From the NCBI GenBank assembly GCA_013389055.1, contig JACAEC010000124.1, forward strand, positions 1 through 46,139: DNA of 46,139 nucleotides, given 5' to 3'. The notes beneath the pieces are model-generated. The model did not search any database. It was not told the origin of the DNA and saw only the letters and a list, made by a program, of their open reading frames with translations. Position 1 is the first letter of the stretch, and every line of letters begins with the position of its first letter. This document shows, in pieces, positions 15,825 to 28,072 of this stretch. The stretch is from Hydrogenophilaceae bacterium (GTDB lineage Bacteria > Pseudomonadota > Gammaproteobacteria > Burkholderiales > Thiobacillaceae). A program made the translations under genes and the position numbers.

Positions 15825-16346
15825 ATGCACACGCCGCCTGCCGTCATCCGCATCTTGCTGCGCCAGCTGGCCGCCCTGATCGTCGGCCTGAGCCTCGGCT
15901 GTGCCGCCTTGGCCGATCCGCCCGAGGGCTACCCCTTCGTCGACTACGACAGCGGCCTGGCCCAAGCCAAGGCTGAGAACAAGCCGATCCTGCTCTACTT
16001 CGGCCGCTACGGCTGCGCCTGGTGCGAGCACACCAACCGCAAGACCTTCAGCGACCCCGAGATCAAGCGCATCTACAGCGAGAACTACGTGCTCGTCTAC
16101 GCCGACGCCGAAGGCAACCGCCGCCTGCGCCTGCCCAGCGGCGAGCGCATCACCGAAGGCGAGCTGGGCGCCCGCCTGGGCGCCTTCGCCACGCCGCTGT
16201 TCGTCTTCCTCACCGCGGAAGGCCGCCAGGTCGCCAAGGTCCCGGGCTTCAAGACGGTGGACGACTTCAAGGACTACGACCGCTACGTCCGCGGCCGGCA
16301 TTACGAGAGCCAGTCGCTGACGGAATTCCTCAAGTCCCGGCCGTGA
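15825..16346 (+). CDS. Exported thioredoxin-fold protein (CxxC)
   Basis: N-terminal hydrophobic segment; AKAENKPILLYFGRYGCAWCEHTNRKTFSDPEIKRIYSENYVLVYAD...ATPLFVFLTAEGRQVAKVPGF. Confidence 0.85.
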   Translation: MHTPPAVIRILLRQLAALIVGLSLGCAALADPPEGYPFVDYDSGLAQAKAENKPILLYFGRYGCAWCEHTNRKTFSDPEIKRIYSENYVLVYADAEGNRRLRLPSGERITEGELGARLGAFATPLFVFLTAEGRQVAKVPGFKTVDDFKDYDRYVRGRHYESQSLTEFLKSRP

Positions 16347-17530
16347 ACCGCCTTCTGCCTCTCTGCCTCTCGGCCTTGCTCAGCCTGCCCGTTGCGGCGC
16401 AGTGGCAGTTCGACGCCCCGATCGCCCTCGCCGCGGCCAAGGCCGGCGTCTTCCACCATCTCGACGCCTCCGGCCGCAAGGCCATCGCCGTCGCTGACGG
16501 CCGTGTCGCGATCGCCTGGGAAGACAACCGCAACGGCACCCCAACCTGCCATGTCGCGCTCAGGCCGGATTCGGCTGCCGGCTTTCGCGAGTTCAGCTTC
16601 GGCCAGGGCGAATGCTTCGAGCCGGCGCTGACCGCTCTCGATCACGGCCGCTTCGCCTTGATCTGGGAAGACGCCGCCGGCATGAATGCCGCGCTGCTGA
16701 CCGAGCGCGGCATCTCCGCCACCCTTAACCTCGCTGCCCAGGGCAGCCAGGGCACCTTGGCCTACCTGCCCGGCCGCGGCCTGTTCGCCGCCTGGTCCGG
16801 CCGCGACGGCCGCTGGCAACGCATCTATCGCGCAAGGCTGACCGTCGCCGGGCAGCCGACCTTGGCCGACGCCGCACAGCCGGCCGACCCGGCGCTACCG
16901 GCCGACGACCAGATCTACCCGGCGCTCGCCGTCGCCGGCGGCGGCATCGCCCTCGCCTGGGAAGACCGCCGGCTGGGCCACACGGTCATCTTCGGCAGCC
17001 GCAGCGACGACGGGACCGACTGGACGCCGCCCCTGCGCGTGAGCCAAAACCCGAGCGGTTCCTCCTCCGGCCTCGGTCGCGGCAGCGGCGCCATGCGGCC
17101 GGCCCTGGCCGCCTTCGGCGCGCGACTGGCCGCCGTCTGGCTGGACAAGCGCGACTTCCTCTCCGGCTATGACGTCTATGCCGCCCTGAGCGATGACGGC
17201 GGACAGCACTTCGGCCCCAACCTCAAGGTCCAGGACAGCTTCGGCGATTCCATCGCCCAGTGGCACGCGGCCGCAGCCGGCAACGACCGTGGCGATCTGG
17301 TCATCGCCTGGGACGACGAACGCGACGGCAATGCCGACATCTGGCTCAGCTGGCGCACCACCGACGGCTTTGCCGACAACCTCTCGCCGCCGCCCGCGCA
17401 CGGCCCCGGCAGTCAAAGCGATCCGGTCATCACCCTCGACGACAAGGGCACACTGCATCTGGCCTGGATCGAGCGCAATGCCGAGGGGCACAGCCGGCTG
17501 CGCTATGCACGGGGCAAACCGACCCGCTGA
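16343..17530 (+). CDS. Exported sialidase/BNR-like beta-propeller protein
   Basis: GTG start overlapping the upstream stop; signal peptide LLPLCLSALLSLPVAAQ; recurring blade motifs VAIAWEDNRNG, FALIWEDAAG, IALAWEDRRLG, LAAVWLDKRDF, LVIAWDDERDG, LHLAWIERNAEG. Confidence 0.75.
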   Translation: MNRLLPLCLSALLSLPVAAQWQFDAPIALAAAKAGVFHHLDASGRKAIAVADGRVAIAWEDNRNGTPTCHVALRPDSAAGFREFSFGQGECFEPALTALDHGRFALIWEDAAGMNAALLTERGISATLNLAAQGSQGTLAYLPGRGLFAAWSGRDGRWQRIYRARLTVAGQPTLADAAQPADPALPADDQIYPALAVAGGGIALAWEDRRLGHTVIFGSRSDDGTDWTPPLRVSQNPSGSSSGLGRGSGAMRPALAAFGARLAAVWLDKRDFLSGYDVYAALSDDGGQHFGPNLKVQDSFGDSIAQWHAAAAGNDRGDLVIAWDDERDGNADIWLSWRTTDGFADNLSPPPAHGPGSQSDPVITLDDKGTLHLAWIERNAEGHSRLRYARGKPTR

Positions 17531-17726
17531 GCAGCACAGCCCGGCGGCAACCCCGCAGCCGGGCCTAGCTCAATTCCCAATCTGAACGCGTACCCCGTCG
17601 GTAGCAGCACATCCTGATATCTCCCGCCTTGGCCGGTTCACGGCGCATTTCACAATACATTTGCCCTATTCGTCTTTCAGCCGGGAATGAAAAAACGCGA
17701 TGAGGACAGGAAGGGCAAAAGAATAA

Positions 17727-17750
17727 GCATATCGACCTGACCCGATATGC
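17727..17750. promoter_or_regulatory. Perfect 8-bp dyad upstream of the sigma-factor gene
   Basis: GCATATCG-acctgacc-CGATATGC, about 137 bp before the GTG start at 17887. Confidence 0.4.
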
Positions 17751-17886
17751 GCCCTTGCCAGACCCCGGCCTGGCAGCCCCCCACAGCCATCCAGACCAGG
17801 CAGTCTCATCGGCCTGACCGAGTGGACGCGTTGTTTCCCATTCCCAGACACATACCAAAGCAGCATTCAAAAAATGGGAGAACAAC

Positions 17887-18585
17887 GTGGATATCCATTC
17901 CATCGACGCCGCTGATTTTGGCCCGCGTAACGAATCCATCCAGTCCGGCCAAGCCCCCACTAACGACAGAGATATCCTGGAAGCACTGGCCTATGGCGAA
18001 CATAGCGGCATGCAAAGGCTGATGCTGCGCTATCAGGGATTTTTGCGGGGGCGTTGCCGAATGCTGGTGCGCGGCAATCGTGACGATGCCAATGACCTGT
18101 TCAGTCAGGTGATTTTCAAGGTCTACACCGAGCGCCCGGACCGCTTGCGCGAAATCCGCCACATTGGCGGCTGGTTGAGTCAGGTTGCCCAGAATCAGCA
18201 CATCGACTCCCAACGCGAACGGCAGGCCCAGGAGCGACGCGATGACAGCCTTTGTTATCTATACGAAACCATCGGCTACCAGGCACCCTCCCCGGAACAA
18301 GTCCTCTTGAACAGCGAGCTGGCCCAGCATATTCGGCGCGCGTTCGAATTGCTGCCAAGCCGCCTGGGCCGGGCCGCGCGAATGCGCTTCATGGATGACG
18401 CACCATACGAAGAGATCGCGGCAAAATTGAGCATCACCCAAGCCAATGCCAGAAAGCGGGTTCAAGAAGCCCGGCGGGTTCTCATCGCTCACCTGCTGAA
18501 CTACGTCGGCGAAGGCCAGGCAAGACAGCGACAGGCACACGGCTCGGGCGATCCCACCGCAGCGTCGGGCTACCGAGACAGTTAG
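17887..18585 (+). CDS. ECF-like sigma-70 family RNA polymerase sigma factor
   Basis: Region 2-like MQRLMLRYQGFLRGRCRMLVRGNRDDANDLFSQVIFKVYTERPDRLREIRHIGGWLSQVAQNQHIDSQR and region 4-like FELLPSRLGRAARMRFMDDAPYEEIAAKLSITQANARKRVQEARRVL. Confidence 0.85.
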   Translation: MDIHSIDAADFGPRNESIQSGQAPTNDRDILEALAYGEHSGMQRLMLRYQGFLRGRCRMLVRGNRDDANDLFSQVIFKVYTERPDRLREIRHIGGWLSQVAQNQHIDSQRERQAQERRDDSLCYLYETIGYQAPSPEQVLLNSELAQHIRRAFELLPSRLGRAARMRFMDDAPYEEIAAKLSITQANARKRVQEARRVLIAHLLNYVGEGQARQRQAHGSGDPTAASGYRDS

Positions 18586-18611
18586 ACAGCCTCAAGCATG
18601 GAGCAAGGGCA

Positions 18612-21600
18612 ATGAGCGAAACGATCCCGGCCTCGCTGGAAGGCAGCCAGCGGCAAGGTAGCTGTAGCCTAGGCAATCTCCGTATCTCCTGGCAGGCATG
18701 GCGATCGACCCCAGCCGGCTGGCAGGCCGAATGCCTGCTGCAGCTGGGCAATTCGATGTCGCAGATCGTCTTGAACGAGGACAACCCCAGCCAATCCTTT
18801 CAGCTCTCCGGTGATGGCGAAACCGCTTGGGGCAGCCTCGACCTGACGCCGGCCGCCAACGGCGACACCCTCCTGGGAATTACCTACCAGACCAGCGGCC
18901 TCGCCGAACAAATCGCGACGCTGCACATCTGGAACGTCTGCAGGACCTGCGACCACGTCCCCCCCATGTATGGCAACGCATTCTTGGGTAACGGCGGCTG
19001 GCTCAAGGTGGGTTGGACCATCACCGGCTCGGAAGACACCTGCCAAAAGGTCCTGCTCAACGTGGAGACTGCCGATGGCATCAAGCTAGGCCGCGACACC
19101 CTGACACCGCAACAACCCGAGTGGTACCAGGTTATCCAACAAGGCTACGGCTACGCCGAACTGCTATTGGCCGAGCGCTTCCATGTCGACGGCCGCATCA
19201 TGCTCGAAGCGACGCTACGCCACACCCAGTCACCTACCCAGCAGGTGACGTTGGCCGTCCTGCCCGGCGGCTCGCCGGTGCCAGAGCCAGAACCGGACGA
19301 CAAACCCGGCGACACCTTGGTGCTCGGCCCCCCGCGCAACTTCGCCTCGTTCACCTACCCGCGTGCCCTGCAGCCCCCCAGTGCCGGCCAGCAGGGCCGC
19401 CGCTTTTTCAGCCTGTCGAACACTGGCGCCTTTCAAACCCAATTGGCCAGCCTCAAAGCCAAACCGGATCGCGCCGGCATGGTGGCCCTGGCCCAGGGCT
19501 TCAAGAACGATCCGGCACAGTTCGTCGACCAGATCGCCAGCCTGCAAGGGGCCATGGGACGGCTGCAAGGCCCGGCAGTACAGGCCTTTCTGTCCCTCCA
19601 CCCGGAAACCTTGGCGGAGCTGAATGCCGCTTTGGAGGCCCTGCTCGGCGAGCCTGTGGCGAGCTTCCTGCAAGACCCGAATTACGAAGGCCAATGGCAC
19701 CGCCTGCAAGACAGCGTGATCGCCATCGTGGTGCTGGGCAGCCGGATCGGACGCCATGAAGCCGACTTGATCCGCGCCTTGATGGTCTGCCACGTCGCCA
19801 CCTGGCTCAATGCCCTCATCCCGATTCCGCAAGGGAACCCCTCGCCGCAGCCGACGCCGACACCCGAGCCGATGGCTGAGCCGACACCGACGCCCATACC
19901 TTTACCGATACCCCTATCGACCCCCGCGCACATGCGCGAGGTGCTGCAAGCGAATTCGCTGTTGCCGGACAATATCTTGCCGCTGCCGCAAGCGCCCGCC
20001 ACCAGCACCGTCAGCCCGCTCGGCTATGCCGACATCAAGATCATCCGGCAGCGGCTGAAGCGCTACCGCCTCGGCGAACTCGCCCATGTGGAAAACGTCA
20101 TGCGGGGCGAGACCAAGGAGGAGACCCAGCAACACAGCCGGCAGATCGAGTCTCAGCAAAACGACACGCAGCTCAGCCACGACAGCGATCAGCGCAAGCT
20201 CGATTACGACGGCCGCTCGCACCAATCCGAGGCCACGGCCAGCAGCCCGATCAACGACCTCAAACGCGAGTTCGACAGCCTGAAAAAACTATACGACAGC
20301 GATGGCCTGTCGGTGACGGTCAGCGGCGGCTGGACCGACACCCTGGATGGCCCGACAACCTTGGACGACCAGGCCACCCTCTATGCCCGCAACCTGCTCG
20401 ACCGGGCCAGCAGTCGAGTAGCTCGGCGGGTCAGCAAGCTGCGTCAGCAACGTACGCTCGAAGAGTTCAGCGAACTGCATCGTCGCCGCTTCCAGAACGA
20501 GGCCGGCACCGGCCACCTGATCGGCCTCTACCGTTGGGTCGACGAGATCCATGTCGCGCATCTCGAACAGGTCGGCAGCCGCCTCATCCTGGAATGTAAC
20601 TTGAGCAACCCCGCGGCGAATTTTCTGCAACGCAGCAATGCCCTGCACGGCATCAACCTCAGCGTCCCGGTGCCCCCGTGGGTGGCCGCCGACGGCATCG
20701 GCGCCGTCAACTCGGCCAATGACATCACCCGGGCCAATTACCTGAGCCTGGCCGGCCGCTATGGCGCCGACGTTCGGCCGCCGCCGCCGCAACAACGCAT
20801 CGTCAACGCCAACCTCGGCACCGATCCGCCGCACCCGATTGCCATGCTGCCCGTTCCGGACGGCTATCTCGCCGCCAGCGCGAACATCGCCTATGCCTGG
20901 GCTACACCACCCAGCCCAGCGGGACAGGGCAATACGCCGCCACCGACCTTTGACGTGCTGGTCGGCGATGCCGCGCAAAAGATCGACCCCGGTAGCGACC
21001 CCAATCCCGGCACCAAGACCCTCGCCGCCGTGCAGGCCACCGATGGCGCCCTGCCGGTCAGCATCGTCGCCGCTGGCCTGGCCTATGCCGTCAACGTCAG
21101 CCTGGTCTGCCAATGCCCGGACGACTCGCCCTTGTTTCGCCAATGGCAGATCGACACCTATGCCGAGATCGTGGCGGCCTATCGGCTGCGCAAAGAAGAG
21201 ACCAACCGCATCATGGGCCTACTCGCCGAAGAATTCGCCCGCCCCGGCAGCGAGGGCCGCCGCGAGACCGAACGCGAGGAACTGCGCCACGGCGCCATCC
21301 AGGCATTGATCGCGCCCTGCCTCGCGCTCGACACCGGCGTCACGCCACCACCATTGACGCCGGAGCAAGTTGAGTTCGAGTTGATCCCGTTCTTCCGTCA
21401 GGCCGTGGAATGGGCGGAGACGAGCTTCAGCTATTTCGGCCGCTATTCCGCAGGCAGCACTACAGACTGGCTGAACATGGTGCAAACGGTCGGCCAGGAC
21501 GACGGCTTCCACGAATTCCTTCAGGCCGGCTCGGCGAAACTGCTGTTGCCGGTCGGACCGGCTTACGTCTTGCCTATGCTGTTCTACTTGGCCTCCGGCG

Positions 21601-21830
21601 GCTACTTCTGGTTCGGCGAGCCCGGAATCTGCCCGGTGTTCGAGCACGACCTGTGGCTGGCCAACGAACTGAAGTCGCTGGCACGCAGGCCACCGGAGCC
21701 GATCCCCTTCAAAACTTGGGAGATCGAAGTCGCCACCTCCCTGCTGATGCTGCAACAGGACGGCACGCTGCCTAATTTAATTCCAGGGCAAAGTGATGAT
21801 GACACGGAGGCGGGCCGCCATGTTTTCTGA
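18612..21830 (+). CDS. Large (1072 aa) uncharacterised protein with a Pro-rich linker and a charged/helical mid-region
   Basis: Long ORF with consistent codon usage; linker PTPTPEPMAEPTPTPIPLPIPLSTPA; charged segment HVENVMRGETKEETQQHSRQIESQQNDTQLSHDSDQRKLDYD; GLYRWVDEIHVAHLEQVGSRLILECNLSNPAANFL; C-terminal EREELRHGAI...FFRQAVEWAETSFSYFGRYS. Confidence 0.85.
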   Translation: MSETIPASLEGSQRQGSCSLGNLRISWQAWRSTPAGWQAECLLQLGNSMSQIVLNEDNPSQSFQLSGDGETAWGSLDLTPAANGDTLLGITYQTSGLAEQIATLHIWNVCRTCDHVPPMYGNAFLGNGGWLKVGWTITGSEDTCQKVLLNVETADGIKLGRDTLTPQQPEWYQVIQQGYGYAELLLAERFHVDGRIMLEATLRHTQSPTQQVTLAVLPGGSPVPEPEPDDKPGDTLVLGPPRNFASFTYPRALQPPSAGQQGRRFFSLSNTGAFQTQLASLKAKPDRAGMVALAQGFKNDPAQFVDQIASLQGAMGRLQGPAVQAFLSLHPETLAELNAALEALLGEPVASFLQDPNYEGQWHRLQDSVIAIVVLGSRIGRHEADLIRALMVCHVATWLNALIPIPQGNPSPQPTPTPEPMAEPTPTPIPLPIPLSTPAHMREVLQANSLLPDNILPLPQAPATSTVSPLGYADIKIIRQRLKRYRLGELAHVENVMRGETKEETQQHSRQIESQQNDTQLSHDSDQRKLDYDGRSHQSEATASSPINDLKREFDSLKKLYDSDGLSVTVSGGWTDTLDGPTTLDDQATLYARNLLDRASSRVARRVSKLRQQRTLEEFSELHRRRFQNEAGTGHLIGLYRWVDEIHVAHLEQVGSRLILECNLSNPAANFLQRSNALHGINLSVPVPPWVAADGIGAVNSANDITRANYLSLAGRYGADVRPPPPQQRIVNANLGTDPPHPIAMLPVPDGYLAASANIAYAWATPPSPAGQGNTPPPTFDVLVGDAAQKIDPGSDPNPGTKTLAAVQATDGALPVSIVAAGLAYAVNVSLVCQCPDDSPLFRQWQIDTYAEIVAAYRLRKEETNRIMGLLAEEFARPGSEGRRETEREELRHGAIQALIAPCLALDTGVTPPPLTPEQVEFELIPFFRQAVEWAETSFSYFGRYSAGSTTDWLNMVQTVGQDDGFHEFLQAGSAKLLLPVGPAYVLPMLFYLASGGYFWFGEPGICPVFEHDLWLANELKSLARRPPEPIPFKTWEIEVATSLLMLQQDGTLPNLIPGQSDDDTEAGRHVF

Positions 21831-22491
21831 CGCGCTGCCCATAGGATCGATCATTCCCTACGCAGGCCCCATCAACAATCCGAACGATCCCAAGGGCGCC
21901 AGCAACTATCCGCCATACGGCTCGAAGGCCTACGACCTCTACCTGGAACAACACGGCTGGCTGGTCTGCGATGGCAGGACCGTGCTGGTAGCGAAATACC
22001 CGGAGCTGTTTCACGCCATCGGTTTCATCTACGGCCAGGCCGGGCCGGGCAAGTTCATGCTGCCCGACTATCGGGGCCGGGTCCTGCGCGGCGTCAACCT
22101 CGATGCCCAAGGACCGGACAAGCTGCCGCGCGACCCCGAGGCCAAAGACCGCACCGCATCCGGCAGCGGTGGCTGGGCCGGCAATCAGGTCGGCTCGGTG
22201 CAGGATGACGCCTTCCAGGCGCACGACCATCTCTACCAAAAAGCCGTTTCACTGAAACCCCAGGGCTACGCGGGAAGCGGCGCTTACAACAGTTACGAGA
22301 TACCCGAAACGCAAACGGATGGTGCGGTGAATCCGACCAAAAACCCGGATGCCATCAGCATCCGCCAAGCGCCAGAGACGCGGGTCAAGAACGCCTACGC
22401 CAACTTCATCATCAAGTACAGCCAGCGGCCGCAACTGTTCGGCTCCATGCTCGACACGGTGCTCGACCGTCTCACCGGCTTCGACTTTTAA
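21820..22491 (+). CDS. Phage tail collar domain protein (tail-fibre / microcystin-dependent-protein-like)
   Basis: MFSDALPIGSIIPYAG...WLVCDGRTVLVAKYPELFHAIGFIYGQAGPGKFMLPDYRGRVLRGVN: collar signature; ACGGAGG ribosome site; overlaps the upstream gene by 11 bp. Confidence 0.88.
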   Translation: MFSDALPIGSIIPYAGPINNPNDPKGASNYPPYGSKAYDLYLEQHGWLVCDGRTVLVAKYPELFHAIGFIYGQAGPGKFMLPDYRGRVLRGVNLDAQGPDKLPRDPEAKDRTASGSGGWAGNQVGSVQDDAFQAHDHLYQKAVSLKPQGYAGSGAYNSYEIPETQTDGAVNPTKNPDAISIRQAPETRVKNAYANFIIKYSQRPQLFGSMLDTVLDRLTGFDF

Positions 22492-22602
22492 AGTCCACGC
22501 CCAATCCATTTTCACGCCGCACCACCGACATCCGTCTTATCGACACAAGCAATGAGATCGACCTGCACGGTCTCGACAAAATAATTTTCGAAAGGGATGA
22601 CG

Positions 22603-23370
22603 ATGGCGATGATCTACACGCTGCATAACATCAACGTGGACGACATGGCGACCGCAGTGCTGGTGAAGAATGCGCTCGACAGCACGGCGACCAAGCCTTG
22701 CGGCACCAGCCAGCCCGAAAACACGCCCAGCGCAAAAACAAAAAAGACCACGGGCGATGCGGCAGCAGAGCCATCCGCACCTACGCCTGCCCCGCCGGCG
22801 CCGAGCTTCATCTATTGCCCCTGGCAGTTCCTCAACCCATCGCGAGGTGCCGAAGAGGGTTTTACCTACAACAACAGCCTTTCCGTCGTGATCAAAAAGT
22901 CCTCCGGGGCCGGCACGATTCAGAGCAAGCGGGTTCCCGTGCAACTAGGCAGCAGCTACATGCTGGTCATCGGGGAAAAGGATATCCAGCTACAGACCCT
23001 GCCCCAGAACGGGAAGGGCTATGTCGAGCTCGTCACCCCGACCCCATCGGTTGATCCGTTTACCGTGAACATCGAGTGGCACTTGAGTGATCTCGATCAA
23101 TCCCAAGGCCGCTGTATCGGCATTACCCAGAATATCGGCCCCGACACGAGCGCCTTCTTCCAGCCCGACAATGGCACCTTGTTGTTTTTTTCTGTCGCTG
23201 CCAACGCGGCAACGCAGACCTATGCGCCGTCCGACATCCCCAAGACGGCGACGGCCTATCAGCCGCCCAACAACGTCATTCAGGTGGGAGTAACCCTCGA
23301 AAAAGACGCGACCGGCCTACCCGCCTACACCTTCGACCGGCTCAACGCGGCAGTAGCAACACAAGACTGA
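22603..23370 (+). CDS. Uncharacterised protein, divergent member of the three-gene paralog family (start 22597 or 22603)
   Basis: IYTLHNINVDDMATAVLVKNAL...FIYCPWQFLNPSRGAEEGFTYNNSLSV resembles the N-termini of the next two ORFs. Confidence 0.72.
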   Translation: MAMIYTLHNINVDDMATAVLVKNALDSTATKPCGTSQPENTPSAKTKKTTGDAAAEPSAPTPAPPAPSFIYCPWQFLNPSRGAEEGFTYNNSLSVVIKKSSGAGTIQSKRVPVQLGSSYMLVIGEKDIQLQTLPQNGKGYVELVTPTPSVDPFTVNIEWHLSDLDQSQGRCIGITQNIGPDTSAFFQPDNGTLLFFSVAANAATQTYAPSDIPKTATAYQPPNNVIQVGVTLEKDATGLPAYTFDRLNAAVATQD

Positions 23371-23469
23371 CCGGCAATCCGTTCCAACCGGCGCCGGGAG
23401 AATCCACGGACTCGACTTCCTGCGCCGTTTTTACCAGAGCCCGAACCATACCAAACCAAGGAGTAAACA

Positions 23470-24093
23470 ATGGCTACCAAATTCAACGTCACCATGGATG
23501 TGGAGGACATGCAGGGCAAAACCGTCCTGGTCTTCCTCAAGCCGCAAAATCCCCAGCGCAACTACATGATCCATGCCTGGCAGGTGCTCACCGGCTCGGC
23601 TGGCGCCACCGAGTCCTTCCTGTACGAAGCGACCATTTCCACCGATGTGACCAGCACCGGCGTCAACAACAACACCATCGTCTCCGGCCGGCAGACGGTG
23701 CAGCCGGGCCAACTGTTGTCGGCGATCAGCCCCAACAGCCTGTCGCCCATGCTGCAACCGGCGCCGACCTCGCTGGCCCAGGCCAAGTTGACCCCGCAGC
23801 AGGCCGGCGTGATCAACCAAACCAACCCGTTCATCCAGTTCAACAGCAACTGGTACGTGAACGACAAGCCGGTGGTGACCATGCCCTATGTCGATGCCAA
23901 CATGACCGTGAGCTTCGAGTACCTGCCGAACTTCTACTTCATGGTGGCCTCGCCGCCCCTGATCGGCCAGACCTACATCGTCCAGAACTTCTCGGACATG
24001 ACCCAGTACGTGATGCCGATCACCGCCACTTCGGTCGACGTCAACCTGACCCGCAACCAGGGCCTGTGGACCTTCGACTTCGACGCAAAGTAA
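23470..24093 (+). CDS. Uncharacterised protein, paralog family member 2
   Basis: Strong RBS AAGGAG; FNVTMDVEDMQGKTVLVFLKPQNPQRNYMIHAWQVL...LTPQQAGVINQTNPF...KPVVTMPYVDANMTVSFEYLPNFYFMVASP. Confidence 0.85.
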   Translation: MATKFNVTMDVEDMQGKTVLVFLKPQNPQRNYMIHAWQVLTGSAGATESFLYEATISTDVTSTGVNNNTIVSGRQTVQPGQLLSAISPNSLSPMLQPAPTSLAQAKLTPQQAGVINQTNPFIQFNSNWYVNDKPVVTMPYVDANMTVSFEYLPNFYFMVASPPLIGQTYIVQNFSDMTQYVMPITATSVDVNLTRNQGLWTFDFDAK

Positions 24094-24165
24094 GCCGGGC
24101 ACCGGATGGCCTGGCTCGAAGACAGGCCATCCGGCCATTGCGGCAACTCAGAATAGACGAGCGCC

Positions 24166-24798
24166 ATGATCGAATGCAGGGTCCACTCCGAGGTCGACGA
24201 CATGCAGGGCAAGCGGGTGCTGGTCTTCCTCCGGCCCCAACGCCAGAGAACCAATTTTCTTGTTCATGCCTGGCAAGACCTTGAGATCTCATCCGGCGCC
24301 ACGGCCTGTTTCAATTTCGACACCCGGATCAGCGCCCGCCTGCTCACTCGGGGAAAGAGCAGCAACAATCCCACCCGGTCCGCTGAACAAACGATCAACC
24401 CCGGCCAGCTCTACCTGGCCACGCGGCGGGACGGCCTGTCACCCACGCTGGAACCGGCCACAACCGGCATGGCGCGCGAACGACTGACGCCGCAGCAAGC
24501 CGGCGTCTACAACCAGACCTACCCCTACACCAGCGTCGATTGCACCTGGCACGTCAGCGGCAGCCCGGTAGTCACCATGCCGGGGTTGGACTGGGGCATG
24601 ACCTGCAGCTTCGAATATGTGCCGACGCTCTATTTCATGATCGCCGCACCGCTCATCACCGGCGAAAACTTCACCGTGCAAGCCTTTACCGATATGACGC
24701 CATACCCCGTGATCCCAGACATCTCATCGATCGATGTCGAGATTACCCGCGAGAAGGGCCGTTGGCTGTTCAGCTTCCTGACTGACCTGGACGAGTAA
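24166..24798 (+). CDS. Uncharacterised protein, paralog family member 3
   Basis: VDDMQGKRVLVFLRPQRQRTNFLVHAWQDL...LTPQQAGVYNQTYPY...SPVVTMPGLDWGMTCSFEYVPTLYFMIAAP; clearly homologous to the preceding ORF. Confidence 0.85.
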   Translation: MIECRVHSEVDDMQGKRVLVFLRPQRQRTNFLVHAWQDLEISSGATACFNFDTRISARLLTRGKSSNNPTRSAEQTINPGQLYLATRRDGLSPTLEPATTGMARERLTPQQAGVYNQTYPYTSVDCTWHVSGSPVVTMPGLDWGMTCSFEYVPTLYFMIAAPLITGENFTVQAFTDMTPYPVIPDISSIDVEITREKGRWLFSFLTDLDE

Positions 24799-24924
24799 CG
24801 GGGCGCAACTCTAGCTCACATTGTTGCCGACATAAACGTCATACAACTGCCAGGTCACCACCTGGACACCTAAGCGATGCATCACATGGCATGCGTCATT
24901 CGACTACGACAACAGGAGAAACCC

Positions 24925-25509
24925 ATGAACAAACCATCTTGCCTGATCACCAGCCCCGCCATCCGACTGATCTCGATCAGCCGTCTCAGGCGGGCTGCGC
25001 TGGGCTCAACCATGACGACTGCCCTCGCCACACTGCTAGCAGCATTGCTGGCAACGACCGTCCATGCCCAAATCTACCGGGGAATGCGTCCGGACCCGGC
25101 CAACGCCAACCAACCCCAAGTCGCCAACACGGCGTTGGGCCTGGGCGTACGGGATGCCGATGTCGTGTTGACGCCAGCCGGCATTGCCTTGCCAAACAAC
25201 CCCGATACCGGCACGCCGCAGGGCACGTCGGTAGTCACGGCCAATCCCTGCGAGCTTCCCGCCTTTACCCGACCGGCCGGCAACAACTGGAACGGCACCG
25301 GCAATGCCAACCTGAACGTATGGGTCATGGACCAAAACAACCTGCCGGGCACGCTGCAGGTCCAAGCGGCACCTGTGGCTGGCAGCCCGAATCACGCTGT
25401 GATCAGCACCGCTGGCGTCGGCCTGACCCTGCCCAACTTCCGTGCCGCTGTCGCCAGTACGCAGGCCCAGTGGGCGATCGAGCCACCCCCTGCCAATGCC
25501 TGCCCATAA
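24925..25509 (+). CDS. Uncharacterised exported protein
   Basis: Start MNKPSCL with AGGAGA upstream; basic N-region then ALATLLAALLATTVHAQIYRG, a plausible signal peptide with cleavage after HAQ. Confidence 0.72.
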   Translation: MNKPSCLITSPAIRLISISRLRRAALGSTMTTALATLLAALLATTVHAQIYRGMRPDPANANQPQVANTALGLGVRDADVVLTPAGIALPNNPDTGTPQGTSVVTANPCELPAFTRPAGNNWNGTGNANLNVWVMDQNNLPGTLQVQAAPVAGSPNHAVISTAGVGLTLPNFRAAVASTQAQWAIEPPPANACP

Positions 25510-25578
25510 AAACATGAGGCGATCAGGAGAAGCCCCAACTTCGACTAGGCCACAAAAAACATAGTTGAAGGATGGATC

Positions 25579-25863
25579 ATGGTTTGCAAAGGGAAACTGG
25601 ACTTGGAGGCCCATTGTGCAAGCCGCTTGGCTAACGGGGTCTTCACCTTCGCCGAGCTCTTGGCCTGCATCTTGGCCAGCAATGCGGCCGGGCTCGGCAA
25701 AGGCGAGATCGTCGACATCCTCAATGGCGTGCTGCAAACCCTGGAGGCGCAGGGGCGCGAAGCCGAGTTCGAAATCGTTGCCGAACTCGTTCAACGCATC
25801 ACCGGCTTCTTTTCGCCTCATGGCGTCATTCATCTTAGGGACTTCGAACCACCAGCAGAATGA
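25579..25863 (+). CDS. Small uncharacterised protein (94 aa)
   Basis: MVCKGKLDLEAHCASRLANGVFTFAELLACILASNAAGLGKGEIVDILNGVLQTLEAQGREAEFEIVAELVQRITGFF; lies in the gap between co-oriented ORFs. Confidence 0.6.
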   Translation: MVCKGKLDLEAHCASRLANGVFTFAELLACILASNAAGLGKGEIVDILNGVLQTLEAQGREAEFEIVAELVQRITGFFSPHGVIHLRDFEPPAE

Positions 25864-25966
25864 ATGCTTCACAAGTCCTGCCGCAATCTCGTCTTGTCGT
25901 AGGCAGAGATGTCAGCCCATTTCAGCCGAGCGTGACTGAAGCCACTAACCAAAGGAGGAACACACC

Positions 25967-26824
25967 ATGGCCTTGACCGGCAAATTTACCGACATACCGA
26001 GCGGCAACCTGAATCCCACCTTGAGCGCCGGCAGGCTCAGCGCCGCCTTTGACATGAAGGCACTCTTCACGACAGACAGCGGCACCTGTGCCAAAGGCGA
26101 ATACCGGCAGCATGTCAAAGGCCAGTTCAAGGCCAACGGCACCGTCATCCAGCATAGGCTCTGCGACAGCACTTGGCTCGACGCAGGAACCTTCTACGAA
26201 GACGGCTGTGGGCCTTCAGGCACCAACCCGGGCCCTTGCACGGCCTATGGCCACCGGGACTGTCCCGATCACCCGTATGACATGTACAGCCCCGACCCCC
26301 GCAGCACAGGTTGCACATACGTCGGCTGGGACGCGCCTGGAATCACCGGCAACCCAGGTGATAAGCTGGAAGTGGATTTGAGCTTCATGGCCGAGTTGAT
26401 CAATGTCGATACCGGCGCTGTTTTGGCTTCTGCCAGCTGGACCGTGAAAGGGAGTGCCACTGTGCCGACGAAAACCTTGCGTCCTTCCACCCTGACCCAA
26501 CTCGCAGCAGCACAACGGCTCGACGCCGTCGTGGAATACCACGAGGAGAAAGGCCATTGGCAGGTCACGCTGCTGATCGCGCGACCGTCCCGGCCCCAGG
26601 CCCAGGCCCTTAGCAAGCGCACTCTCACGGTCAACCTCCTGGATTCGAAACGCCAGCCCTTGGCCCTCCTCTCCGGTCAGCAGGCTAAGTCCTATGTAGT
26701 GGGTGGCAGTAAGGGAGAGACCGAAACCATCCTCTACTTCTTCGAAGCTGGCGATCTGGCGCCATCGGCCCTCAAGGTGGAGATGGATGGCCAGTGCATC
26801 AACCTGGAACTCGAGGAAGACTAG
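25967..26824 (+). CDS. Uncharacterised cysteine-rich protein
   Basis: RBS AAAGGAGG before ATG; seven Cys including DGCGPSGTNPGPCTAYGHRDCPDHPYDMYSPDPRSTGC. Confidence 0.75.
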   Translation: MALTGKFTDIPSGNLNPTLSAGRLSAAFDMKALFTTDSGTCAKGEYRQHVKGQFKANGTVIQHRLCDSTWLDAGTFYEDGCGPSGTNPGPCTAYGHRDCPDHPYDMYSPDPRSTGCTYVGWDAPGITGNPGDKLEVDLSFMAELINVDTGAVLASASWTVKGSATVPTKTLRPSTLTQLAAAQRLDAVVEYHEEKGHWQVTLLIARPSRPQAQALSKRTLTVNLLDSKRQPLALLSGQQAKSYVVGGSKGETETILYFFEAGDLAPSALKVEMDGQCINLELEED

Positions 26825-26842
26825 GTTTAGGCAGCAAAGACG

Positions 26843-26876
26843 CGGGGCGGGCACTGGATTGGCCAGTCCTGCCCCG
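26843..26876. terminator. Compound hairpin after the Cys-rich ORF (possible transcript end; no T-tract)
   Basis: CGGGGCGGGCACTGG-ATTGG-CCAGTCCTGCCCCG. Confidence 0.35.
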
Positions 26877-27025
26877 ACACGTCAGCATTCCAGCGGCAGC
26901 CCCTTCTTAACAACGTAGCAATTAGCGCGGCGTTTGTCCGACCACCACCGGTTTCGGAGTTCCCGCGCCAAGGGTGGCCGTAATCGATCGCCCCTTGCCC
27001 CACCGATATTGAGAGGATGCTTCTC

Positions 27026-27880
27026 ATGCAGCGCCAGCATTTTTTCGCCAGGTTCATATCACTTTGCCTGCTGATCCTCGCCCCGCTTGCCCAATCAGCC
27101 GGCACGCCGGCATCCAGTGTCGGCTCCTTAAGCTGGAAGAAGACGCAGGTACAACCGACCTTGTTGTACAAGGAGGTCCACCCAGCCGCGGCCAATTACC
27201 TCGGCCTGCCCGCCACCGCGCCTGTCACGCCCGACCAAAGCGCCTTCGTGCAAATCACCGACTCCGCGCGCTATGGCGGTAATGTGGCCAAGACCGTGCT
27301 CTACGGCTGGCAACTGCATTATTCCGGCGTCACCGTCGTCAACAAGAACAGCGGCAGGTCGAGCCAGGTCAATCTCACCTTGCTGATCGACGGCAGCACC
27401 GGGCCCAATGGCCGTCCGACCAAGGCGCTGGTCGCAGCCATTACCGACATCAACCAGGCGGCCTGGCTGCCACCCGTGTTGCCCAGCCGGGACTATACCC
27501 AGGCCATGCGGGATGATGGCTGGACGGTCGACCGCCTACAGACCACGCCGCTCAACTCCAAGGTGACACAACTGCTTGCAGCCCTCTGGATGAACAACGG
27601 CATCGACCCGGCACAAGCCGGCCAGATCCTGCTGCGGCCCATGCAGGTGAGCTTGGCCCTGCCGGCAAAGCGCGCCAGCGGCGGTCGTTTGCAGCCCTTG
27701 CAGCCCACGGGCATTTATTGGATCGCGCTGGTCACCGGCACCAGAACCCATACCATCACCGGGCCCGATCCGATTTCGCCCAGCCCAGCGACCACTACCA
27801 GCGAGCGCTACATGACCGGCTTGGTCGCCCTGTTCAGCGACTTCGGCCAGCAATCGATTCGCGGCATCTATCTGCCCTGA
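27026..27880 (+). CDS. Uncharacterised exported protein
   Basis: MQRQHFFARFISLCLLILAPLAQSAGTPAS signal peptide; AGAGGA RBS 8 nt upstream of ATG 27026; no recognised domain. Confidence 0.75.
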   Translation: MQRQHFFARFISLCLLILAPLAQSAGTPASSVGSLSWKKTQVQPTLLYKEVHPAAANYLGLPATAPVTPDQSAFVQITDSARYGGNVAKTVLYGWQLHYSGVTVVNKNSGRSSQVNLTLLIDGSTGPNGRPTKALVAAITDINQAAWLPPVLPSRDYTQAMRDDGWTVDRLQTTPLNSKVTQLLAALWMNNGIDPAQAGQILLRPMQVSLALPAKRASGGRLQPLQPTGIYWIALVTGTRTHTITGPDPISPSPATTTSERYMTGLVALFSDFGQQSIRGIYLP

Positions 27881-27894
27881 ACCGCCGACATTAC

Positions 27895-27927
27895 GGGCAC
27901 ATCCCTCCCCCCGCCGTCGATGTGCCC
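27895..27927. terminator. 9-bp perfect inverted repeat at the end of the cluster
   Basis: GGGCACATC...GATGTGCCC; no T-tract. Confidence 0.3.
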
Positions 27928-28072
27928 GCGGCGCGCAATGTGCCACGCCCTGGCCGGATGGTCAGGGGGTTTTTAGCGTTCTGGCGACACAAGAGACCCG
28001 CTCGCGCCAGCCAACGCCGGCAGAGTGGGGTCTGGTATAGTTCAGCCCTCGAAGAAAAAGCCAATTCCCGCC

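Follow-up and report, generated by a model that had tools for sequence, protein, structure and literature searches.

The stretch of DNA analysed here (the window, 46,139 nucleotides of contig JACAEC010000124.1 from a Hydrogenophilaceae bacterium) carries ten co-oriented genes on the + strand, located at 17,887–27,880 by an open reading frame (ORF) check, which probably form a horizontally moving, sigma-switched toxin–immunity island with an undescribed carrier. The cluster encodes a sigma factor of the extracytoplasmic function (ECF) type, a 1072-aa protein (BIG), a collar protein (COLLAR), a 257-aa protein (P257) that precedes two DDMQGK proteins (DDM1 and DDM2), the candidate toxin–immunity pair S210 and s94, and two further proteins, P285 and S287 (Table 1). 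Comparison with the sequences of other genomes, denoted here by G numbers and their loci by L numbers, established a conserved gene set, a shared promoter, swapping pairs, a linkage to toxins across the BIG family, and mobility as a unit. The original prediction, made from the letters of the window, described nine co-oriented ORFs over about 10 kb; their place and strand were confirmed, and the count was corrected to ten.

Distribution and mobility of the cluster

The cluster was found, by sequence comparison with mechanical gene calling in the comparison genomes, in no fewer than four further genera or families beyond the window's genus. Within that genus, a syntenic cluster occurs in three genomes, the third copy being partial and on a short contig. 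A genome from another family of the same class (G192) encodes homologues of the ECF sigma factor, BIG, COLLAR, P257, DDM1, DDM2, S210, s94 and S287 with their order kept, at identities to the window of 68% for BIG, 76% for COLLAR, 91% for DDM1, 63% for S210 and 76% for s94. Its flanks differ, with a resistance–nodulation–division (RND) efflux region on one side and a LysR gene on the other, and it additionally encodes a secreted protein, S238, which is absent from the window. ECF–BIG–COLLAR–P257–DDM1–DDM2 is retained in G823 and G857 despite a BIG identity of 34%, BIG–COLLAR–P257–DDM1 is retained in G832, and most of the cluster, the sigma gene included (58%), is present in Duganella sp. 1224. 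Because it recurs in other genera and families down to 34% BIG identity, the cluster is regarded as a real unit, and the conservation of gene order and protein sequence amid unrelated flanks is beyond chance. A gene-neighbourhood check of BIG, the collar protein and the DDMQGK family had been proposed in the original prediction; the homologues co-occur in G192, G823/G857, G832 and Duganella, that is, outside close relatives.

In two genomes of the window's genus (G001 and G004; loci L191 and L192), collinearity with the window breaks off at about 15,826 and is restored at about 28,055, leaving an empty site. As the missing block starts at about 15,827, the thioredoxin-like and beta-propeller genes (window 15825–17530) fall inside it. 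The left boundary originally proposed, after the beta-propeller gene, therefore holds as the edge of the cluster and fails as that of the missing block. These two genes are not beside the cluster in G192. On the evidence of its genomic contexts, the cluster moves horizontally as a unit.

A promoter shared by the cluster genes

A conserved block upstream of the ECF sigma gene resembles TTTCACA-N15/16-CGTC. Six clusters were searched for TCACA-N-CGTC, which gave 17 sites; the six that precede the sigma gene had supplied the motif, and the remaining 11 were additional. Each of the 17 lies in a gap directly upstream of a cluster gene (ECF, P257, S210, P285, S238 or a further secreted protein), with a spacing of 16 nt in 13 sites and 15 nt in four. 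Across the six clusters, no sites were found at spacings of 10–14 or 17–25 and none on the opposite strand; a simulation with spacings of 16–17 gave 0.6 expected sites (maximum 3), compared with 13 observed. Within the 2.28-Mb genome, the pattern TCACAN{16,17}CGTCWT matches four times, of which three fall in the cluster (17,650; 24,816; 25,869); the fourth match, at the gap–pgk junction, is probably due to chance.

These sites resemble the promoters of ECF41 sigma factors, because the published ECF41 signature is TGTCACA-n16-CGTC (PMC3426412), and their positions suggest that they are read by the cluster's own sigma factor, the orthologues of which in the clusters of other genera and families share 50–63% identity. 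The closely similar promoter here precedes the sigma gene and its neighbours. In contrast to ECF41, TG rarely precedes TCACA in the cluster sites (it is absent from nearly all), the 232-aa sigma factor has no fused C-terminal regulatory domain above the cut-offs of Pfam and NCBIfam, and the apparent target is not a COE gene but a toxin island. No anti-sigma gene was recognised beside the sigma gene. The original prediction of a self-regulated locus agrees with this dedicated promoter.

A slot for swapping candidate toxin–immunity pairs

In the window, the slot after DDM2 holds S210 followed by s94. G002, G005 and Duganella instead encode, in this slot, a protein that combines a signal peptide (assigned throughout from hydropathy and by eye) with a bacterial EndoU domain (PF14436; E about 1e-14, which passes the cut-off). 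Downstream of it comes a predicted cytosolic protein, about 110 aa long, whose similarity to UPF0231 is below threshold; a short S287-like ORF separates the two genes in Duganella. Homologues of EndoU and the UPF0231-like protein are located further along in G823 and G857. The proteins segregate as pairs in 7/7 genomes: two (the window's and G192) combine S210 with s94, five combine EndoU with its UPF0231-like partner, and s94 was not found in clusters whose slot holds EndoU. This pattern makes S210 a candidate toxin and s94 its candidate immunity protein. The toxins of the window cluster would be stand-alone proteins, as no conserved trafficking domain with a swapped C-terminal toxin is encoded there. 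Assignment of S210 as a Tse2-type ADP-ribosyltransferase was considered, given that its mature part starts with IYRGM and contains a GTS motif, and was dropped after a negative profile comparison; S210 is therefore kept as a candidate toxin whose fold is not recognised. In G005, a further secreted protein is encoded between the EndoU pair and S238 (L025, 15729–16343); it has IYRGI in its mature part and an ECF-type promoter of its own, and is a possible second toxin.

Of the original claims, that of secreted unknowns stands insofar as S210 and S287 have signal-peptide-like N-terminal segments, and the slot is now read as a toxin–immunity pair. For an envelope-associated or secreted fibre-like assembly nothing specific was found; the EndoU slot and the position of BIG beside toxin and immunity genes (see below) point to toxins instead.

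The BIG family and its neighbours

BIG comprises a beta-rich N-terminal region (residues 14–217), a helical region (258–402), a Pro/Thr-rich linker and a widespread C-terminal domain (about 463–1046). By sequence, this last domain constitutes an unnamed family in the curated libraries searched, and a Pfam search of 47 family members returned no shared or convincing match. It was found at no fewer than 463 loci in 84,980 species genomes, spanning many phyla and including archaea; the matches listed include Cyanobacteria, Bacteroidota, Chloroflexota, Actinomycetota, Legionella and Methanoperedens. Relatives of the domain (~580 aa) lie on plasmids of the archaeon Natronorubrum and of Chryseobacterium, Tsukamurella, Streptomyces, Sinorhizobium and Photobacterium. 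No match to BIG was obtained by tblastn in 50,697 phage records, and IMG/VR contained it at three loci only.

The 80 BIG loci examined for linkage were those most similar to the window rather than a random sample. Pfam searches of 91 operon neighbours of BIG returned patatin (12), SUKH-type immunity families (5, 5 and 4, overlapping), collar (5) and Tox-MPTase4 (4), together with single or double matches to WHH nuclease, ADP-ribosyltransferase, colicin DNase, CdiA tRNase, pre-toxin, muramidase and amidase families. A control set of 91 proteins, taken at the outer ends of these loci, gave housekeeping families (among the first 25 of 144 families listed). In two Bizionia loci (L078 and L086), the proteins encoded two genes after BIG are 98% identical over residues 1–550 and unrelated thereafter, which is a hallmark of polymorphic toxins. 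Such a constant, unnamed region (about 550 aa, encoded downstream of BIG), with swapped C-terminal toxins and SUKH-type immunity genes, was also seen in the Bacteroidota loci L054, L083, L087, L100 and L102, and apparently represents, by its sequence, a polymorphic-toxin family without a Pfam trafficking domain.

COLLAR is the next gene after BIG in Duganella, two Cyanobacteria, a Comamonadaceae metagenome-assembled genome, Photobacterium and Chitinophaga. In the window, its start overlaps the BIG stop by 11 nt, so that translational coupling of the two genes is likely. Residues 52–146 of COLLAR match the T4 gp12 short tail fibre (E 1.4e-4). DDM-family genes adjoin BIG in several collar-bearing lineages, and in one cyanobacterium the DDM domain is fused to BIG. 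The tandem paralogues originally noted, DDM1 and DDM2, were verified as such, and P257, which has a Pro/Thr-rich N-terminal linker, proved to be a third. DDM1 has no signal peptide. The wider DDM family is not always linked to BIG, since G775 and G515 encode single DDM-like proteins with no BIG within about 10 kb; stand-alone family members of the NxSNDxNN..IVIFQKN type, again with no BIG nearby, are encoded at L178 (9466–10125) and L179 (10099–10752).

The structure and fold check that had been proposed was completed for BIG and DDM1. The AlphaFold model of BIG (mean predicted local distance difference test score, pLDDT, 76.9) contains unusually long strands at 466–496 and 636–665 and matched no PDB or viral fold at E<=0.001; the DDM1 model matched no PDB fold at the same threshold, and the DDM proteins matched no PDB sequence. 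The notion of BIG as a beta-pore-former failed one of two simple tests and survives only within the platform reading given under the implications: per-sequence alternation was not above that of shuffled sequences (2.52 vs 2.44) and no fold matched, while the segment flanked by the two long strands showed alternation in the family average, and only weakly in the collar subgroup. Identification of the N-terminal beta domain of BIG as a DDM domain was likewise rejected after a negative profile comparison. At eight loci (L052, L053, L056, L060, L066, L079, L093 and L101), BIG is split into two adjacent genes, one for an N-terminal protein of about 350–413 aa and one for the C-terminal domain, so the two parts are separable.

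Coordinates and database searches

The coordinates of the features are collected in Table 1. Only the sigma factor (PF08281/TIGR02937) and the tail-collar protein (PF07484) passed curated cut-offs, two of the ten cluster proteins, just as the original prediction had it. NCBIfam and PHROGs added nothing beyond generic sigma and tail-fibre matches, and PADLOC models gave zero matches to nine cluster proteins. Neither integrase, terminase or capsid families nor sheath, tube, baseplate or ATPase genes were detected among the cluster proteins with Pfam and PHROGs, consistent with the earlier judgement that the locus is neither an ordinary prophage nor a contractile injection system. Sigma and collar domains aside, the proteins have no description in Pfam, NCBIfam, PHROGs, PADLOC or PDB sequence and fold searches, which upholds the claim of an undescribed system, and no paper on a combination of collar, sigma factor and polymorphic toxin was found in the open-access literature searched.

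Table 1. Features of the cluster and its surroundings, in window coordinates.
Feature	Position	Strand	Remarks
Missing block, 12.2 kb	15827..28054		Absent from G001 and G004; empty site between HD-GYP-like gene and glycosyltransferase gene
ECF-type promoter TCACA-N16-CGTC	17650..17674	+	Upstream of sigma gene; conserved there in six clusters
ECF-like sigma factor, 232 aa	17887..18585	+	PF08281 E 1.6e-6, TIGR02937 E 6e-20
BIG, 1072 aa	18612..21830	+	Pfam and PDB (sequence and fold) searches gave nothing convincing
COLLAR, 223 aa	about 21820..22491	+	PF07484 E 6.6e-15
P257, diverged DDM paralogue	22597..23370	+	DDM profile E 3e-51, residues 62–254
DDM1, all-beta, DDMQGK family	23470..24093	+	Model pLDDT 86.6
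DDM2, DDM1 paralogue	24166..24798	+	47% identity to DDM1
Second ECF-type promoter TCACA-N16-CGTC	24816..24840	+	Upstream of S210
S210, secreted, candidate toxin	24877..25509	+	Hydrophobic core about residues 49–59; 63% homologue in G192
s94, 94 aa, small acidic, candidate immunity protein to S210	25579..25863	+	76% homologue directly after S210 homologue in G192
Third ECF-type promoter	25869..25893	+	Upstream of P285
P285, Cys-rich, without signal peptide	25967..26824	+	Orthologue with own promoter in G002 (L008, 15189–16040)
S287, secreted	27017..27880	+	Orthologues in G002, G005, G192 (77%) and G823/G857 (about 30%)

Proposed mechanism and alternative readings

Under the proposed mechanism, the active ECF sigma factor would fire the TCACA-N15/16-CGTC promoters before its own gene, the toxin gene and other cluster genes. 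Its activity would yield a structural set made in the cytosol (BIG, COLLAR and the three all-beta DDM paralogues), along with small toxins exported by Sec (S210 here, an EndoU RNase in relatives) and, in the cytosol, their immunity protein (s94 or its UPF0231-like counterpart). BIG would then serve as carrier or translocator of the toxic cargo, and the collar and DDM proteins as receptor-binding or adhesive parts; it is from their linkage to toxin genes that we infer a delivery role for BIG, COLLAR and DDM. Several observations weigh against this scheme. S210 matches no family or recognisable toxin fold, so its toxicity is deduced from the slot it occupies, its signal peptide and its partner; most genes linked to BIG in the collar-bearing subgroup are not recognised toxins; the toxins have signal peptides and the structural proteins do not, which leaves the meeting of the two unexplained; and, as the models of BIG and DDM have no known fold, the carrier role is argued from gene linkage only.

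The main rival reading, that BIG, with its cargo, acts as an accessory or cargo module dependent on a contractile injection system encoded elsewhere in the genome (an extracellular contractile injection system, eCIS, or similar) with the collar as a tip or tail-fibre-like part, is considered unlikely. In Flavobacteriaceae (G1059–G1076), a contractile sheath gene is present in 8/11 BIG-bearing genomes compared with 14/99 in the family sample (Fisher p 9e-5), an enrichment that persists against genomes of at least 3.3 Mb (p 0.004), and no evident signal peptide is present on BIG or its toxins in Flavobacteriia; of the seven genomes with the window's cluster, five also have a sheath gene. The sheath model, however, also matches prophages, and it found no match in the window's own genome (G000, 94.9% complete), Duganella, Legionella, Nitrosomonas, Neobacillus and other BIG carriers. 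No sheath or baseplate gene stands beside BIG in the loci read; the collar–BIG pair of Photobacterium, tried as a possible eCIS part, had none recognisable by eye in 27 kb. Moreover, the window's toxins have signal peptides, which are normally absent from the cargo of contractile systems. Overlapping taxonomic spread and the sheath enrichment thus constitute the likeness to eCIS, whereas the gene content of the cluster and the many sheath-free BIG genomes set it apart.

A domesticated phage-tail fragment, such as a fibre or tailocin remnant that is used as an adhesin at the cell surface and has unrelated secreted proteins as passengers, would account for the resemblance of the collar domain to T4 gp12 and for the Pro/Thr-rich linkers. 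We regard it as very improbable: COLLAR is a stand-alone protein of 223 aa coupled to BIG and is the sole tail gene, BIG is unmatched in the phage records and nearly so in IMG/VR, where no DDM protein was found, and the dedicated ECF regulon and the swapping toxin pairs would be left unexplained. There is also little likelihood that the cluster is an ECF-controlled cell-surface or extracellular-matrix locus for adhesion or biofilm, in which the secreted enzymes EndoU and S210 would serve for scavenging or defence and not as weapons. The cluster does travel with S287, S238 and further secreted unknowns, secreted RNases can be nutritional, and the all-beta DDM proteins could be lectins or adhesins; yet each secreted enzyme is exchanged jointly with its small cytosolic partner, which is what immunity would predict, and BIG relatives adjoin polymorphic toxins with SUKH immunity genes.

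The toxin–immunity island is closest in kind to the polymorphic toxin–immunity systems (PMC3482391). The nearest parallel among characterised toxins is MafB of Neisseria, an EndoU RNase secreted by Sec and encoded directly before the gene of its immunity protein, MafI (PMC4287609). Shared features are the Sec signal peptide, EndoU (in relatives), a gene for a small cytosolic partner directly downstream, swapping cassettes and a genomic-island setting. Unlike MafB, both EndoU and S210 lack the DUF1020 trafficking domain in these clusters, being small secreted proteins that stand alone, and they are accompanied by BIG, the collar protein, the three DDM paralogues and a dedicated sigma factor of the ECF type. 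The constant region with a swapped C-terminal toxin that is typical of polymorphic toxins was seen beside BIG in Flavobacteriia (L078/L086), not in the window cluster.

Implications

We consider it possible, though doubtful, that the BIG family is the core of a toxin-delivery or carrier platform common to bacteria and archaea, in which a ~970-aa protein with very long beta-strands and perhaps a membrane-inserting hairpin would move variable toxins into target cells, here with a collar-type tip, DDM proteins and a private sigma factor. If BIG is indeed a carrier or translocator, it would provide an export route for many polymorphic toxins that have no known one. Many of the at least 463 loci of its domain lie beside toxin, phospholipase and immunity genes, yet the domain is unnamed in the curated libraries searched. 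With one sigma factor, three promoters, one toxin–immunity slot and a fixed structural set, the window cluster is a compact test case, and it may represent a new way for microbes to deploy toxins.

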